Shown in pieces: positions 23,728 to 61,586 of a DNA stretch of 64,000 nucleotides. Numbering within the stretch: position 1 is the first letter of the stretch; each line of letters opens with the position of its first letter. The translations under genes were made by a program, and so were the position numbers. Where the stretch lies: positions 30,187 through 94,186 of the IMG/VR virus record IMGVR_UViG_3300008117_003079; one strand, given 5' to 3'. The notes beneath the pieces are model-generated. The model saw only the letters and a program-made list of their open reading frames with translations, had not been told where the DNA came from and ran no database searches. Origin of the DNA: a virus.

Positions 23728-23737
23728 TATAAATATC
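23728..23737 (-). promoter_or_regulatory. TATATTTATA-like motif (late-promoter candidate)
   Basis: Minus strand GATATTTATA (9 of 10), 16 bases upstream of the fibre start at 23711. No TTG element 20 bases above it. Confidence 0.35.
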
Positions 23738-28798: not shown

Positions 28799-28829
28799 CA
28801 AAGATAGTATAAATATTTTAGATTTACAA
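28799..28829 (-). promoter_or_regulatory. Host-like promoter, TTG-N20-TATCTTTG
   Basis: Minus strand TTG (28829-28827), 20 bases, then TATCTTTG (28806-28799), a perfect TAnnTTTG. A TATATTTATA-like motif lies inside the spacer (28808-28817, 9 of 10), so early and late classes may overlap here. Confidence 0.7.
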
Positions 28830-32647: not shown

Positions 32648-32657
32648 TATAAATATA
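32648..32657 (-). promoter_or_regulatory. TATATTTATA motif (late-promoter candidate)
   Basis: Exact minus-strand copy 22 bases above the ATG at 32625, in the 49-base gap below the giant tail gene. No TTG partner at 20 bases. Confidence 0.4.
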
Positions 32658-55316: not shown

Positions 55317-56366
55317 TTAAATTAAAGGTTTTTCAGTTGTATATAAATGATGAAAATTATGTATTACATTTGGAATATTTTTAACTTTATCCAATTCTAA
55401 CAAAAACGAATTATATTCAGCATGGTCTGGATTTGCTACATTTTTAATTTTAAATTCAGCTTCACTAAATGTACCCCAATCAGAAATCACATTGGTTCTA
55501 ATATCCCATTTTACTTTAGTTTCTCTTTTATCCATATATGATTTAATCATTTTATAAAAATCGTACATTTCTTTATAATTAGTATCTTGCACTACAAATG
55601 AAAAAATATATTCTTTTATAGTTGGTATTTTTGTTATAAACTTTAAATTTTCATGCAACACATCCCAATTACCTCCAATTCTAGTTTTAGTTTCGTATGT
55701 TTCTTTTGTAGCAGCATCTATTGAAATCTCACAAGTATTAACATAACGATGTATACCATTCATTTTCTCCCACATTTCAGGAGTCCATAATGAACCATTT
55801 GTATGTAAATGAATTGATTTTAATTTTTTAAATCTATTTGAATCCAATGTAATAAGAAACTGTCTGAATGATTTTGAGAAAAATGGGTCAGCTGAACCAC
55901 TTAATACCAATCGTTCAACGAACGGTGATATTTCATCGTTAATTTCAGTTAGTTTTTTTTCTACGGATATTCGTTTACTACCTTTATAATTTATTAATTC
56001 AACCCTACAAGATGGGCATTGAAAATTACAGCTTCTATCAAATGTAAAATTAATTATTTTAGGCCCCTTTGTTTTATGTAAATAATCAACATTTTCGGAT
56101 GTATTGGGTATGAATTTAGAAGGTATTCTATTACTTTTAAAACTTGCTAAATATGGACACAAAAATTCATTACAGTATTTGTAACTACCATCAGTTACAC
56201 TATCTCTTATTTTTTCAGAAATTTCAGAATTAAAACTATCCAATATCCCTTTACCACTATTAATATCCGTACTTAACCAAGATGGACAACATAAAAATTG
56301 TTTATTATCTTCTACCTCTGTAAAGAAGAATGGAGTTGTGCATATATATTTTGATTTATCAATCAT
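55317..56366 (-). CDS. Radical SAM protein of the oxygenase cassette
   Basis: 349 residues. CNFQCPSC at Cys113, Cys117 and Cys120 is the radical SAM motif; the N-terminus has further Cys (CTTPFFF, FLCCPSW, YCNEFLCPY) in a twitch-like arrangement. The usual GGEP is replaced by LVLSGSADPFFSK, a variant SAM motif in the same place. ATGA overlap with the 2OG oxygenase upstream. Substrate not known; together with the oxygenases it may act on the same peptide or sugar. Confidence 0.82.
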   Translation of the reverse strand: MIDKSKYICTTPFFFTEVEDNKQFLCCPSWLSTDINSGKGILDSFNSEISEKIRDSVTDGSYKYCNEFLCPYLASFKSNRIPSKFIPNTSENVDYLHKTKGPKIINFTFDRSCNFQCPSCRVELINYKGSKRISVEKKLTEINDEISPFVERLVLSGSADPFFSKSFRQFLITLDSNRFKKLKSIHLHTNGSLWTPEMWEKMNGIHRYVNTCEISIDAATKETYETKTRIGGNWDVLHENLKFITKIPTIKEYIFSFVVQDTNYKEMYDFYKMIKSYMDKRETKVKWDIRTNVISDWGTFSEAEFKIKNVANPDHAEYNSFLLELDKVKNIPNVIHNFHHLYTTEKPLI

Positions 56367-56845
56367 ACTAATTTATTCTTTAATAAATCTTTACTTAAAA
56401 ATGCAATTAGAGACCATCGTTCACCACTAGTAACCTCTGTTACTTCGTGTAATCTACTACCATAAAAGGTATAGATATTTCCGGCAATTTTAGGTACAAT
56501 AAATTTTGGATTATAGCAAATGAGTTCTCCTCCTTGATAATCATCATTTAAACAAGCACCTATGTTATATAAACTATGTTTATCAATATGAGGTTCAAAT
56601 TTATTTCCCTTTTGTACATTTTGTAAATGAATCACATTGAGTGGTTTATTCAATGTGATGTTTGTATTCATTTTAAGATAGTTTAACAATCGTTCAAATA
56701 TCCATTCAGTTATTTCATTTCTTTCTATATGCCAAGCAAAATAAATAGTTTCATTACTTTCCCACCATTCATTTGATAAATGTTTTTGAAATAAATTTGA
56801 TAATGATATTATTTCGTTACATTCTTCTTTTGTAAAGTTTATCAT
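56363..56845 (-). CDS. 2-oxoglutarate/Fe(II) oxygenase (P4H type) 1
   Basis: 160 residues. FEPHIDKH (His86, Asp88), SRLHEVTEV (His133) and GERWSLIAFL (Arg143) form the complete HxD...H...R set. YQGGELICYN is the conserved strand following the first motif. Compact, single-domain form. Starts with a 36-base gap after the next oxygenase. Target unknown. Confidence 0.85.
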   Translation of the reverse strand: MINFTKEECNEIISLSNLFQKHLSNEWWESNETIYFAWHIERNEITEWIFERLLNYLKMNTNITLNKPLNVIHLQNVQKGNKFEPHIDKHSLYNIGACLNDDYQGGELICYNPKFIVPKIAGNIYTFYGSRLHEVTEVTSGERWSLIAFLSKDLLKNKLV

Positions 56846-56881: not shown

Positions 56882-57415
56882 CTATATTAGTGATTTATTT
56901 AATGCGAAATTATCAATTGATAACCAAAAAACAATACTATATCGTATACCATCTTTAATTTTATTAACACTATGTTCGATAGATGAATCAAACATTATAA
57001 CATTTCCAATTTCTTTTGAAGATACTATTGTATCATCATTGTGAAAAATACATAATTCACCACCATCATAATCGGTTTCATTTGAAAGTTGTATTATTAA
57101 AGTTTTATATCTGTTTGGATATTCAATGCCTGAATCGGTATGTCTTTTGAACTCTTGATTTTTATCATATTTCAGAATTATAAAAAAATCAGGTAAATTT
57201 TTTATTTCAAATTCTTTCAACTTTTCTAACATCATATTTGATAAATTATGTGTTAGCTCTATAGTTAACTCACTTGAAGTTCTATGTTCTGATATAACAT
57301 CAATATTACTATATCCTGTTACTTTACTGCGTTTGAATGATTCATCATCAGATAATGATTTAAAGTAATGACAATCATCTTTATTGAATAATTTTTTTTG
57401 AATAATAGATTGCAT
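56882..57415 (-). CDS. 2-oxoglutarate/Fe(II) oxygenase (P4H type) 2
   Basis: 177 residues. FKRHTDSGIE (His92, Asp94), SIEHSVNKI (His148) and GIRYSIVFWL (Arg158) form the HxD...H...R set. YDGGELCIF resembles the equivalent strand in the neighbour, showing common descent. One base after the third oxygenase's stop. Target unknown. Confidence 0.85.
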   Translation of the reverse strand: MQSIIQKKLFNKDDCHYFKSLSDDESFKRSKVTGYSNIDVISEHRTSSELTIELTHNLSNMMLEKLKEFEIKNLPDFFIILKYDKNQEFKRHTDSGIEYPNRYKTLIIQLSNETDYDGGELCIFHNDDTIVSSKEIGNVIMFDSSIEHSVNKIKDGIRYSIVFWLSIDNFALNKSLI

Positions 57416-58654: not shown

Positions 58655-60952
58655 TTATGCATTAATACTTGTTTGATAAAACTCTTGTCTTTTAAAAGTT
58701 TTATTTAGTAATTCATTATCTCCTAAACCGGAAACTATAAAATCCTCTACTATAAAGTTATGTTCACTTTCAAATAAAACATCACCATCTATTTCCAAAT
58801 TATAAAAGTTATCTACATATTGAATACCAAGTTCAACACCTTTTGCTTCACAAATTGGTTTCCATTCTCCATTATCATAGAATGGATGTAATCTATCGGA
58901 AATCATTCCCTTATATTTTACAACTTCAACAACATCATTGGTAGGATGTGGTATTTTATCAGTTACAACACCTCTTACATATTCACCATTTTTATAACTC
59001 AAAACATAATCACCAATCTCAATGTCTACTATGTTTTTAAAACTACCATCTTCCATTTTTACTTTAGTATCGGCAGTGAAACACGAAGGTGGACGTAGGT
59101 TATGAACTAACACATTATTTGCAAAATAATTGTGATATGTTTCAATTTCTGATAAGTTGTATACGATAGTAGATTCTTCTACTATATTTACATTAATCAA
59201 TTTAACATCTCCATTATGTAACTTTACAACATCACCGATTTCTATTTTTTCTACTTCTATTTTTTTAACAGGCTTAATTCCTTCAAATGAATCATCATTA
59301 TATTGTTCTGGTTCACCTAAATAGTTAACCCATCCCTTATTGATGACGTAAATTGGATGGTCTAATGTTGCTTTTAAAATACTTCCATCTGAAAATTCAT
59401 ATTCAACAATCTTATCAATTTGTTTAGAAAAAGTATTTAAAACTTTACTAACTTTTGGTTCGTTATTTTTTAAATCAAATGAAACTACATAATCACCTAC
59501 AACTACATCTTCGATATTTTTTGTAAGTCCATTTTCTAACAAAATTTGTGTACCTGCAACGAAGCAAGGTGCGTTATGAGAAACTACTGAATTGAATGCA
59601 GTAGAACCACTTATAATATAGGTATCGGTATCTTCAACATCTAATTCTATATAAGTTAAATTATTGTCGGTAGATACATAAAAATTTAATTCATCTATAT
59701 CAATTAGATTACCATTGGCATCGTATAAATAATCTACTTCAGGATTTATATTATATATTTCTTTAAATGAACTTGCATTAGAGCTAGAATCAAAAATTAA
59801 AAACGATTTTGCTATTCCAGAGAAAAGAGAATCATCATCTACTTTTAATTCAAACATACTATTATATTTTAAGTTTTCATACTTTTTATAAATTACAATA
59901 GATGATGTTAAGTATGAACCAATTGGAAACTCATTTGTTGGAAAACTATAATTAGTATCCGTCTCCTCTTCAACAGAACGAGATATATAATAAGATTTTA
60001 CATAATCACCCACAACAAACTCTGATATAGGTTTGTAAGTATTTTCATCAGTTAGTATTTGGTGAGTTGATAGTATTCCTGCTGAATCATTTTTGAATAA
60101 GTTAGTTGTAAACTCATAGTAGTGATAATCGGCTATTTTATTTGTATATTGATTTTCAACTACTTCAGAACTTAAATCGGTTGGTAAGTCAAATATTGAA
60201 CTAATTTTATAAGTATGTAAATTTACTACTTCTAAATTAGAGCCATATACTATTCCAAAAAATCTATAAGATGTTATGTGGTTATTATCATCTACATTAG
60301 ATGGGTGAAAATGATATTGCTCTATTAACTTATCTTCTGCTGCGTTTTCACTAATAAAGTTATTCCATCTATCTTCTGATGATTCGTTTTCAGTTTGAAA
60401 ACCTATTTTAAAGAAATCAATTGGATTATGAATTTCATTCACATCCTTTATAGTTACATCTGGTATATTGTTTGGGTTTATCTCATTTGTAAGAGTGTTT
60501 TTTTCACCAAATGATGATGAATGATAATATGAAATAGAATAATCATTTATAGAATTATCCGTAAATAAATTAAAAACATTTAATCTATTTTTACAGTATT
60601 CACTATCAAACAGAGCAGATTCATCATACGCTAATCTCAAAATAAATTTATTATCAGAATCCTCAACTTGTGTTGGGTATATTGTACCATTACTTTCTTT
60701 ATGTAAATTTATAACGGTTGTATCTGATGATAGAGAAGATGTAAGTTGGTTTACAAATTTTTGATGAATATCTGGTTTATAGATAATATCTAATTCAGAG
60801 ATACTATTATCTACAAGTATTTGGTTAAAATCAGAAAAATCAAAATTAACTAATTCCTGATTTATAAATCCAGTATCAGTATTTAATTCTAATAATCTCA
60901 AATTACCAGTTGAGTCTTTTACAAAATCTGCGGAAAATAGTGTTCCTTTCAT
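58655..60952 (-). CDS. Protein with tandem Hint (intein-like) domains
   Basis: 765 residues. The N-terminal part (1-285) starts with FSADFVKDSTGNLRLLELNT, which resembles the end strand of ATP-grasp enzymes (DFVxDxxGNLRLLExNTD), and has a second possible ATP-grasp block RLAYDESALFDSEY. Then three Hint-like units: 290-460 (THQILTDE, VGDYVKS, ends SHN460), 463-618 (CFVAGTQILLENG, LDHPIYV, ends LVHN618) and 624-742 (CFTADTKVKMEDG, LHPFYDN). The 2nd and 3rd begin with Cys; the 1st has Ser295-Thr296 instead. Each HN end is followed by Ala or Leu, not Cys/Ser/Thr, so cleavage without splicing is expected. Late motif upstream. Confidence 0.82.
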   Translation of the reverse strand: MKGTLFSADFVKDSTGNLRLLELNTDTGFINQELVNFDFSDFNQILVDNSISELDIIYKPDIHQKFVNQLTSSLSSDTTVINLHKESNGTIYPTQVEDSDNKFILRLAYDESALFDSEYCKNRLNVFNLFTDNSINDYSISYYHSSSFGEKNTLTNEINPNNIPDVTIKDVNEIHNPIDFFKIGFQTENESSEDRWNNFISENAAEDKLIEQYHFHPSNVDDNNHITSYRFFGIVYGSNLEVVNLHTYKISSIFDLPTDLSSEVVENQYTNKIADYHYYEFTTNLFKNDSAGILSTHQILTDENTYKPISEFVVGDYVKSYYISRSVEEETDTNYSFPTNEFPIGSYLTSSIVIYKKYENLKYNSMFELKVDDDSLFSGIAKSFLIFDSSSNASSFKEIYNINPEVDYLYDANGNLIDIDELNFYVSTDNNLTYIELDVEDTDTYIISGSTAFNSVVSHNAPCFVAGTQILLENGLTKNIEDVVVGDYVVSFDLKNNEPKVSKVLNTFSKQIDKIVEYEFSDGSILKATLDHPIYVINKGWVNYLGEPEQYNDDSFEGIKPVKKIEVEKIEIGDVVKLHNGDVKLINVNIVEESTIVYNLSEIETYHNYFANNVLVHNLRPPSCFTADTKVKMEDGSFKNIVDIEIGDYVLSYKNGEYVRGVVTDKIPHPTNDVVEVVKYKGMISDRLHPFYDNGEWKPICEAKGVELGIQYVDNFYNLEIDGDVLFESEHNFIVEDFIVSGLGDNELLNKTFKRQEFYQTSINA

Positions 60953-60978: not shown

Positions 60979-60988
60979 ATATAAATAT
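60979..60988 (-). promoter_or_regulatory. TATATTTATA-like motif (late-promoter candidate)
   Basis: Minus strand CATATTTATA (9 of 10), 26 bases upstream of the Hint gene start at 60952. No TTG partner. Confidence 0.3.
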
Positions 60989-60995
60989 GATTGTT

Positions 60996-61586
60996 TTAAA
61001 TTAAACTTCTTTTTGATTTAACATCAATTACATTTCGTAATCTATTTCTATTATCTAAAAGAGAATGAGAATTTATTTTTTGAATCCCCAAATAATGAGT
61101 TAACCTATTAATATCCTCATTACCTTGATATATGTTCTCATATGATACCATTAATTCAATTTGGGGTATATTAGATATTATCTCTTTATATTTCTGCAAT
61201 CTAGATTCCTCCTCTTTGATTTCTTTTTCATTTTCTATTAACCATTGATTAGATATTTCATAGCATTCTCTCCAAGTAATAGAATTTGAAGATAGTGCCC
61301 AATAATGTGATATTGCACACTCTTGTATATCGTTTCGTATTAACCCAATGACCTTATCCCAATTACTCCAATTGAATGTATCTAATTCATTTTCTATTTC
61401 ACTAATCAAATACTTTACTACTATATTGTTTTTATTTTTTTCCAATAACCTGATTTTATAGATACTCAACATATCAAAATTATCTTTTGTTGGTTCATGA
61501 ATAGTTTGATATTTTTTTTCTGAACCTATCCAATTAAGTAAAGAATACCCACCACTTCTACCCATCGCGATTATTAGTATTCTCAT
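60996..61586 (-). CDS. Sulfotransferase-like P-loop protein
   Basis: 196 residues. IIAMGRSGGYSLLNWI (5-20) is the 5'-phosphosulfate loop type seen in sulfotransferases (xxGxxRSGxxxL), and GLIRNDIQECAISHYWA near 101-117 fits the 3'-phosphate loop (RDxxxxxxSxY). His30 and other residues could act in catalysis, but the acceptor is unclear. Sits beside the sugar isomerase, which favours a sugar acceptor. Confidence 0.65.
   Translation of the reverse strand: MRILIIAMGRSGGYSLLNWIGSEKKYQTIHEPTKDNFDMLSIYKIRLLEKNKNNIVVKYLISEIENELDTFNWSNWDKVIGLIRNDIQECAISHYWALSSNSITWRECYEISNQWLIENEKEIKEEESRLQKYKEIISNIPQIELMVSYENIYQGNEDINRLTHYLGIQKINSHSLLDNRNRLRNVIDVKSKRSLI

Follow-up and report, generated by a model that had tools for sequence, protein, structure and literature searches.

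Tandem Hint domains behind an ATP-grasp-like fold suggest a self-cutting or self-linking protein in a large freshwater phage

A large freshwater phage encodes a 765-residue protein in which an ATP-grasp-like domain is followed by three Hint domains in tandem, an architecture that suggests a virus protein able to cut itself or to link itself to other molecules. The reading that we favour, with rather more confidence than doubt, is that of a late phage protein carrying a glutathione-synthetase/YgiC-type ATP-grasp domain in front of an array of bacterial intein-like (BIL) domains, which would process itself, likely in the course of virion assembly. Most of what is known of Hint domains concerns single cutting or splicing units. 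The family of phage proteins described here stacks two to four of them behind an ATP-grasp fold, with nothing to splice and with most active sites intact, which raises the question of what a late phage protein gains by processing itself repeatedly.

Organization of the protein

The window analysed here, a stretch of 64,000 nucleotides, comes from a 94-kb IMG/VR virus record. The open reading frame occupies positions 58655..60952, as originally located, and lies on the minus strand, starting with an ATG at 60952; about 30 distinct homologues were recovered, and an identical copy of the 765-aa protein is encoded on a contig of 201,940 bases. All parts of the gene given below are on the same strand. 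The ATP-grasp-like domain spans residues 1-284 (60101..60952), in which D9, E22 and N24 fit a metal-binding motif. It is followed by a degenerate Hint1 without Cys1 and with a VSHN end (residues about 285-460, 59573..60100), delimited by profiles and by the alignment of the relatives, and by a two-residue linker, Ala461-Pro462 (59567..59572); AP or SP precedes the Cys in 23 of 28 relatives. Hint2 (residues 463-618, 59099..59566) contains Cys463, T529xxH532 and H617-N618. Translation places a five-residue linker, LRPPS (59084..59098), between it and Hint3 (residues 624-742, 58727..59083), which retains Cys624 and the block-B His689, with Asp in place of the block-B Thr and SG in place of the C-terminal HN. 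The C-terminal tail, beginning GLGDNELLNKTFKRQ (residues 743-765, 58658..58726), is conserved only in relatives with an SG-type last Hint. The landmarks of the original prediction are all recovered in the translation: CFVAGTQ begins at residue 463 and CFTADTK at 624, the VSHN and LVHN ends fall at residues 460 and 618, and the residues behind the two HN ends are Ala461 and Leu619.

Hint identity and catalytic residues

Hint-type Pfam profiles match the window protein, as had been anticipated, at about 454-618 and 623-759 (Hint 3.7e-14, Vint 7.7e-14), with further matches to Intein_splicing and PT-HINT (1.1e-8). When 20 of the family's Hint units were combined into a profile, it matched 58 distinct PDB sequences, with BIL2 from the BUBL1 locus of Tetrahymena (6y75, 3.7e-25) at the top, followed by a Clostridium BIL (2lwy, 3.6e-19) and inteins. 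The same order of Hint structures was returned by Foldseek from an AlphaFold model of the window protein (mean pLDDT 76.6), BIL2 being found at E about 2e-10 with a TM-score of 0.86-0.91 normalised by target. The unit proposed to lie degenerate before CFVAGTQ is a real Hint: in an hhalign comparison of profiles it matches the active units with a probability of 94.7% and an E of 6e-8, and its own profile matches BIL2 at 3.6e-6 in the PDB search. The earlier count of two clear Hints and one degenerate one thus stands in that all three units are Hints, but the last is not fully clear, given the T to D change in its TxxH and its VSG end.

Among the 59 Hint units of the family, a count taken apart from the Cys-less Hint1, none lacks Cys1 or the block-B His (59/59 each); 52 have the block-B Thr and 51 a terminal HN. 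An SG end is found in 7/59, window Hint3 included, and one further unit (L031) is truncated. Cys, Ser or Thr stands directly behind the HN in no unit of the 59; the +1 residue is K, R, L, F, Y or I across the family, most internal units and almost every terminal one having K or R. Within the window protein the complete catalytic set occurs only in the middle Hint, which combines the Hint fold with Cys463, T529/H532, H617-N618 and Leu619 at +1 and would on these residues be classed as a type A BIL, following the definitions of the two BIL types and the type A chemistry in PMC4031507. Hint3, with a VSG end instead of the C-terminal HN of type A, resembles a type B BIL as far as its residues can tell.

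As to Hint1, which by the same scheme should start with Cys or Ser, no main-family relative has a Cys there; the terminal Asn is retained throughout, and the His has been lost in a few (L015, L016, L022). A distant relative, L200, has Ser at position 1 of this unit, suggesting that Hint1 may once have been active.

Family, architecture and module shuffling

Scans of IMG/VR with the N-terminal domain returned 36 and then 43 loci, corresponding to the roughly 30 distinct proteins once duplicates were removed, and additional members came from a Hint-based scan that is biased towards similar sequences. The layout of the main family is constant, consisting of the N-terminal domain, the Cys-less Hint1 and then 0 (L043, L044), 1, 2 or 3 Hints. 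With Hint1 counted, the 28 proteins that have further Hints comprise 21 with three, five with four and two with two. Linkers between Hints are often just 2-3 residues long: Hint1 and Hint2 are mostly joined by AP or SP and Hint2 and Hint3 by RA or the like, and Hint4 is preceded by KF or KA. Where the last Hint has an HN end (20 proteins), a single Lys and a stop follow in 19, and one has Arg at +1.

Multiple Hints in one phage protein had been thought unusual. This calls for some qualification, as the stacking recurs in environmental phages with up to four Hints in a row. The N-terminal domain to which they are joined had no relative among 50,697 annotated phage records, nor among 84,980 prokaryote genomes searched by pattern and tblastn. 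Dozens of environmental phages carry relatives with two to four consecutive Hints, and the tandem-Hint observation is more general than was assumed.

A second tandem-Hint clade (L156, L161-L168, L172, L173) has 3-4 Hints, with a Hint1 likewise devoid of Cys. Its proteins start with MSV(Q/K/R/I)... and carry an IYFIExNTN motif; the match of their N-terminus to that of the main family is weak (hhalign E 0.042), and it is perhaps a divergent ATP-grasp. Tandem Hints also occur in proteins without the ATP-grasp-like domain (L195, L199, L212, L214). One of these, at positions 1171-3957 of L195, is a Cys-rich protein with three Hints, longer linkers between them and a basic Gly/Arg-rich tail. In L200 (1669-4443) the ATP-grasp-like domain, the Ser1 Hint1 and a Hint2 are followed by a long GG-rich repeat domain, which may be a fibre-type adhesin.

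In close pairs dN/dS is well below 1 for every module. For L012 and L013 the respective dN/dS values are 0.10/0.89 in the N-terminal domain, 0.17/0.73 in Hint1, 0.08/0.50 in Hint2 and 0.08/0.83 in Hint3, that is roughly 0.1-0.25 across all four modules, a pattern showing purifying selection on each of them. The histories of the modules differ. The window protein and L037 are 86% identical in Hint3, against 49% in their N-terminal domains, 32% in Hint2 and 30% in Hint1; L014 and L038 show a matching pattern with a different terminal Hint (82%). On account of these differing histories, terminal Hints have been exchanged between phages. In L041, the Hint unit at residues 612-761 has the look of a cross between two unit types of L022, Hint3 and Hint4, which would fit a recombination between tandem units with the loss of one of them.

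Such swapping of terminal modules resembles the swapping of fibre tips, and together with the inactivity of Hint1 across the main family and the loss of HN in window Hint3 it would fit inactive Hints that serve as beta-domains, in the role of structural or adhesive modules. We consider this rather unlikely, the conservation of the catalytic residues being difficult to reconcile with it: all 59 units retain Cys1 and the block-B His, and 51 of them HN, despite an identity of the active units to window Hint2 of 24-59% (20-unit alignment), and one would hardly expect units with a purely structural role to preserve the active-site Cys as their first residue.

The N-terminal ATP-grasp-like domain

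The N-terminus had been described as ATP-grasp-like, and the predicted fold both agrees with this and narrows it to the glutathione-synthetase/YgiC type. A PDB sequence search with the domain gave nothing of note, so that a comparison of folds was needed. An AlphaFold model obtained with 31 sequences (pLDDT 85.1) had ten Foldseek matches in the PDB at E<=0.001 (4e-6 to 9e-4), all of them ATP-grasp proteins of the GSH/GSP synthetase type, with YgiC and YjfC first. TM-scores by query length were moderate (0.37-0.44), and the homology would thus be remote and at the level of the fold. No significant match was obtained in a viral structure library, and Pfam GSP_synth was not reached above its cut-off, one of the 31 sequences matching at E 0.055.

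Alignment with E. coli YgiC, YjfC and Gss by hhalign was limited to a motif (E 4e-4, probability 35%), in which ADFVKDSxGNLRLLELNTDT of the family faces MDFAWDGxGxxKLLEYNADT of the three enzymes. The Asp, Glu and Asn within it are the metal-binding residues in Gss. In the phage proteins the D/E/N triad (D9, E22, N24) is invariant across the 31 sequences, as are K169 and K182, and nearly so K121, all three being candidates for ATP-binding lysines. No motif like the Gly-rich ATP loop of YgiC (REGxN) could be recognised in the alignment of the domain, which places its ligase activity in doubt; the domain may be inactive as a ligase.

The kinship with these enzymes also bears on an unlikely alternative, that the protein is a conjugation device. 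The thioester of a Hint would then pass the N-terminal part to the amine of a lysine or polyamine, as Tetrahymena BIL2 does with a ubiquitin-like domain, and the fused ATP-grasp would either be the cargo or make the same amide by another route. BIL2, for which ATP-independent formation of isopeptide bonds has been reported (PMC8616854), is the closest solved relative both by profile and by fold; the terminal units that keep HN have Lys at +1 in 19/20 and Arg in one; and the closest ATP-grasp folds, YgiC and YjfC, are peptide-spermidine ligases according to a reference given in PMC12568646. Against this, the Lys or Arg at +1 may be a mere surface preference, and the Pfam scan of the window protein found no ubiquitin-like domain. 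More doubtful still is an elaborate version in which an ATP-grasp ligase and thioester-forming Hints, united in a single polypeptide, make up a phage conjugation system. It would link the protein or its cargo covalently to virion or host amines, with number and type of Hints exchanged between phages, comparable to the BIL-driven ubiquitin-like conjugation of ciliates.

Promoter-like motif and genomic context

A promoter-like motif, ATATTTATA, lies at 60980..60988 on the minus strand, 36 nt upstream of the ATG, and the phage also has it before its tail tube, tail sheath and tail fibre genes. Within the upstream stretch tested, similar motifs occur in 29 of 30 relatives (4.35 expected from shuffles), in nearly all of them 21-43 nt from the ATG. 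Further copies on the minus strand of the window, such as those at 32648-32656, 28808-28816 and 23728-23736, stand 15-45 nt before a subset of genes. The classical T4 late promoter TATAAATA was sought as well and is absent upstream of the Hint gene, whose coding strand carries ATATTTATA instead.

In a 201-kb relative the motif precedes 26 of 202 ORFs, including those for tail tube, tail sheath, tail fibre and head-tail adaptor as well as a second Hint-bearing protein. It was not found directly upstream of the DNA polymerase, GroEL, terminase or major head protein of that genome, and because the last two lack it, it is no proof of a late class. In this phage group the motif probably, if not with certainty, serves as a late promoter, and its presence before the genes for tail tube, sheath and fibre points to late expression of the Hint-array gene.

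The second Hint protein of the 201-kb relative (L109:1506-3233, minus strand; contig 86005-87732) has 575 aa and reads CLLFGTKI...IISHNKG, with a LamG domain behind the Hint, a ATATTTATA-type motif upstream and a Peptidase_S74 fibre protein nearby; similar genes are present in L111 and L112.

Genes for 2OG-Fe(II) oxygenases (in the window at 56363-56845 and 56882-57415, minus strand) are found near the Hint gene in 28 of 29 loci, followed by SET-domain (15), radical SAM (11), carbamoyltransferase (10) and other genes. The family of the window gene at 60996-61586 is found near the Hint gene in 14/29 loci; it has no Pfam match and looks sulfotransferase-like by eye. Between 46954 and 58477 (minus strand) the window holds a cassette of a carbamoyltransferase, a radical SAM gene, at least two 2OG-Fe(II) oxygenases and small genes, adjoining structural genes.

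Proposed mechanism

In the favoured reading, that of a self-processing late protein, Hint2 would form a thioester at Cys463 and cut behind Asn618 through cyclisation of that residue, and Hint3 would act at most at Cys624. Hydrolysis would free the part made of ATP-grasp domain and Hint1 from the Hint array; alternatively, an amine would attack the thioester and this part would become attached to another molecule. Hint1 would be a catalytically dead Hint retained as a structural adaptor. Since a single Lys usually follows the last HN, a C-terminal cut at that point would be pointless as a release and no C-extein is available for splicing; probably the N-terminal thioester is what matters. The lack of a +1 nucleophile noted in the original prediction (Ala461, Leu619) is borne out and favours cleavage over classical splicing, so that cleavage, or transfer to an amine, would be the likelier outcome.

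A Pro at -1 should make the first acyl shift slower. Pro462 occupies this position in Hint2, which counts against the self-processing reading and would make the N-terminal reaction slow or controlled. Virion assembly as the setting is the least certain step, proposed because of the late promoter, the other Hint-bearing tail genes in these genomes and the relative with a repeat-domain end; a modification cassette would fit the metabolic genes nearby (oxygenases, SET, radical SAM) as well.

Selfish inteins, or their relics, inserted into an ATP-grasp gene would account for a fold and residues that are the same as in inteins, yet this origin is very improbable. There is no C-extein to join, just Lys after the last HN in most relatives; the units, of about 135-165 aa, have neither a +1 nucleophile nor a homing endonuclease; and no uninterrupted homologue with a complete C-terminal half was seen, L043 and L044 simply ending after Hint1. 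With Leu619 at +1 and no downstream domain to complete a host protein, the intein reading was rejected. Scarcely tenable is the release of a C-terminal toxin in polymorphic-toxin (PT-HINT) style, to which the Pfam match at 1.1e-8 would point, as it is largely refuted by the absent C-terminal domain: neither the window protein nor most of its relatives have a domain behind the last Hint, and no conserved immunity-type partner gene lies nearby.

Comparison with known systems

In the literature searched, the Hints described in phages were just inteins, in proteins such as terminase and nucleotide reductase, and no paper combined ATP-grasp with a Hint domain. The parts are known; their combination, an ATP-grasp, a dead Hint and a type A BIL-like array in a late phage gene, appears to be undescribed there. 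If true, the proposal would bring to light a new step in large phages, of maturation or of covalent attachment; natural tandem Hint domains would also be of use as protein-engineering tools.

The N-terminal domain shares with YgiC, YjfC and the glutathionylspermidine and eukaryote-type glutathione synthetases the fold (over 284 residues), the D/E/N metal motif and an ...LLExNxDT motif, but it is shorter, has no clear Gly-rich loop or Pfam match above cut-off, and is fused to Hints. Window Hint3 is similar to type B BILs and the Hog-type Hint of Hedgehog in having Cys1 and no C-terminal HN, and differs from them by the T to D change in block B. Hint2 and most family units have the Hint fold, Cys1, TxxH, C-terminal HN and missing +1 nucleophile of type A BILs. 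Known BILs, in contrast, are flanked on both sides by real domains, whereas the phage units are stacked with linkers of 2-10 residues, usually without anything behind the last. The closest solved structure is that of BIL2 from the polyubiquitin locus BUBL1 of Tetrahymena (6y75, 6tmm), which likewise has no Cys or Ser at +1. The ubiquitin-like domains that stand beside the BIL in BUBL proteins were not found in the Pfam scan of the window protein, the flank being ATP-grasp in the phage and ubiquitin-like in the ciliate; in both, intein-like domains lie inside a protein that has other domains too.
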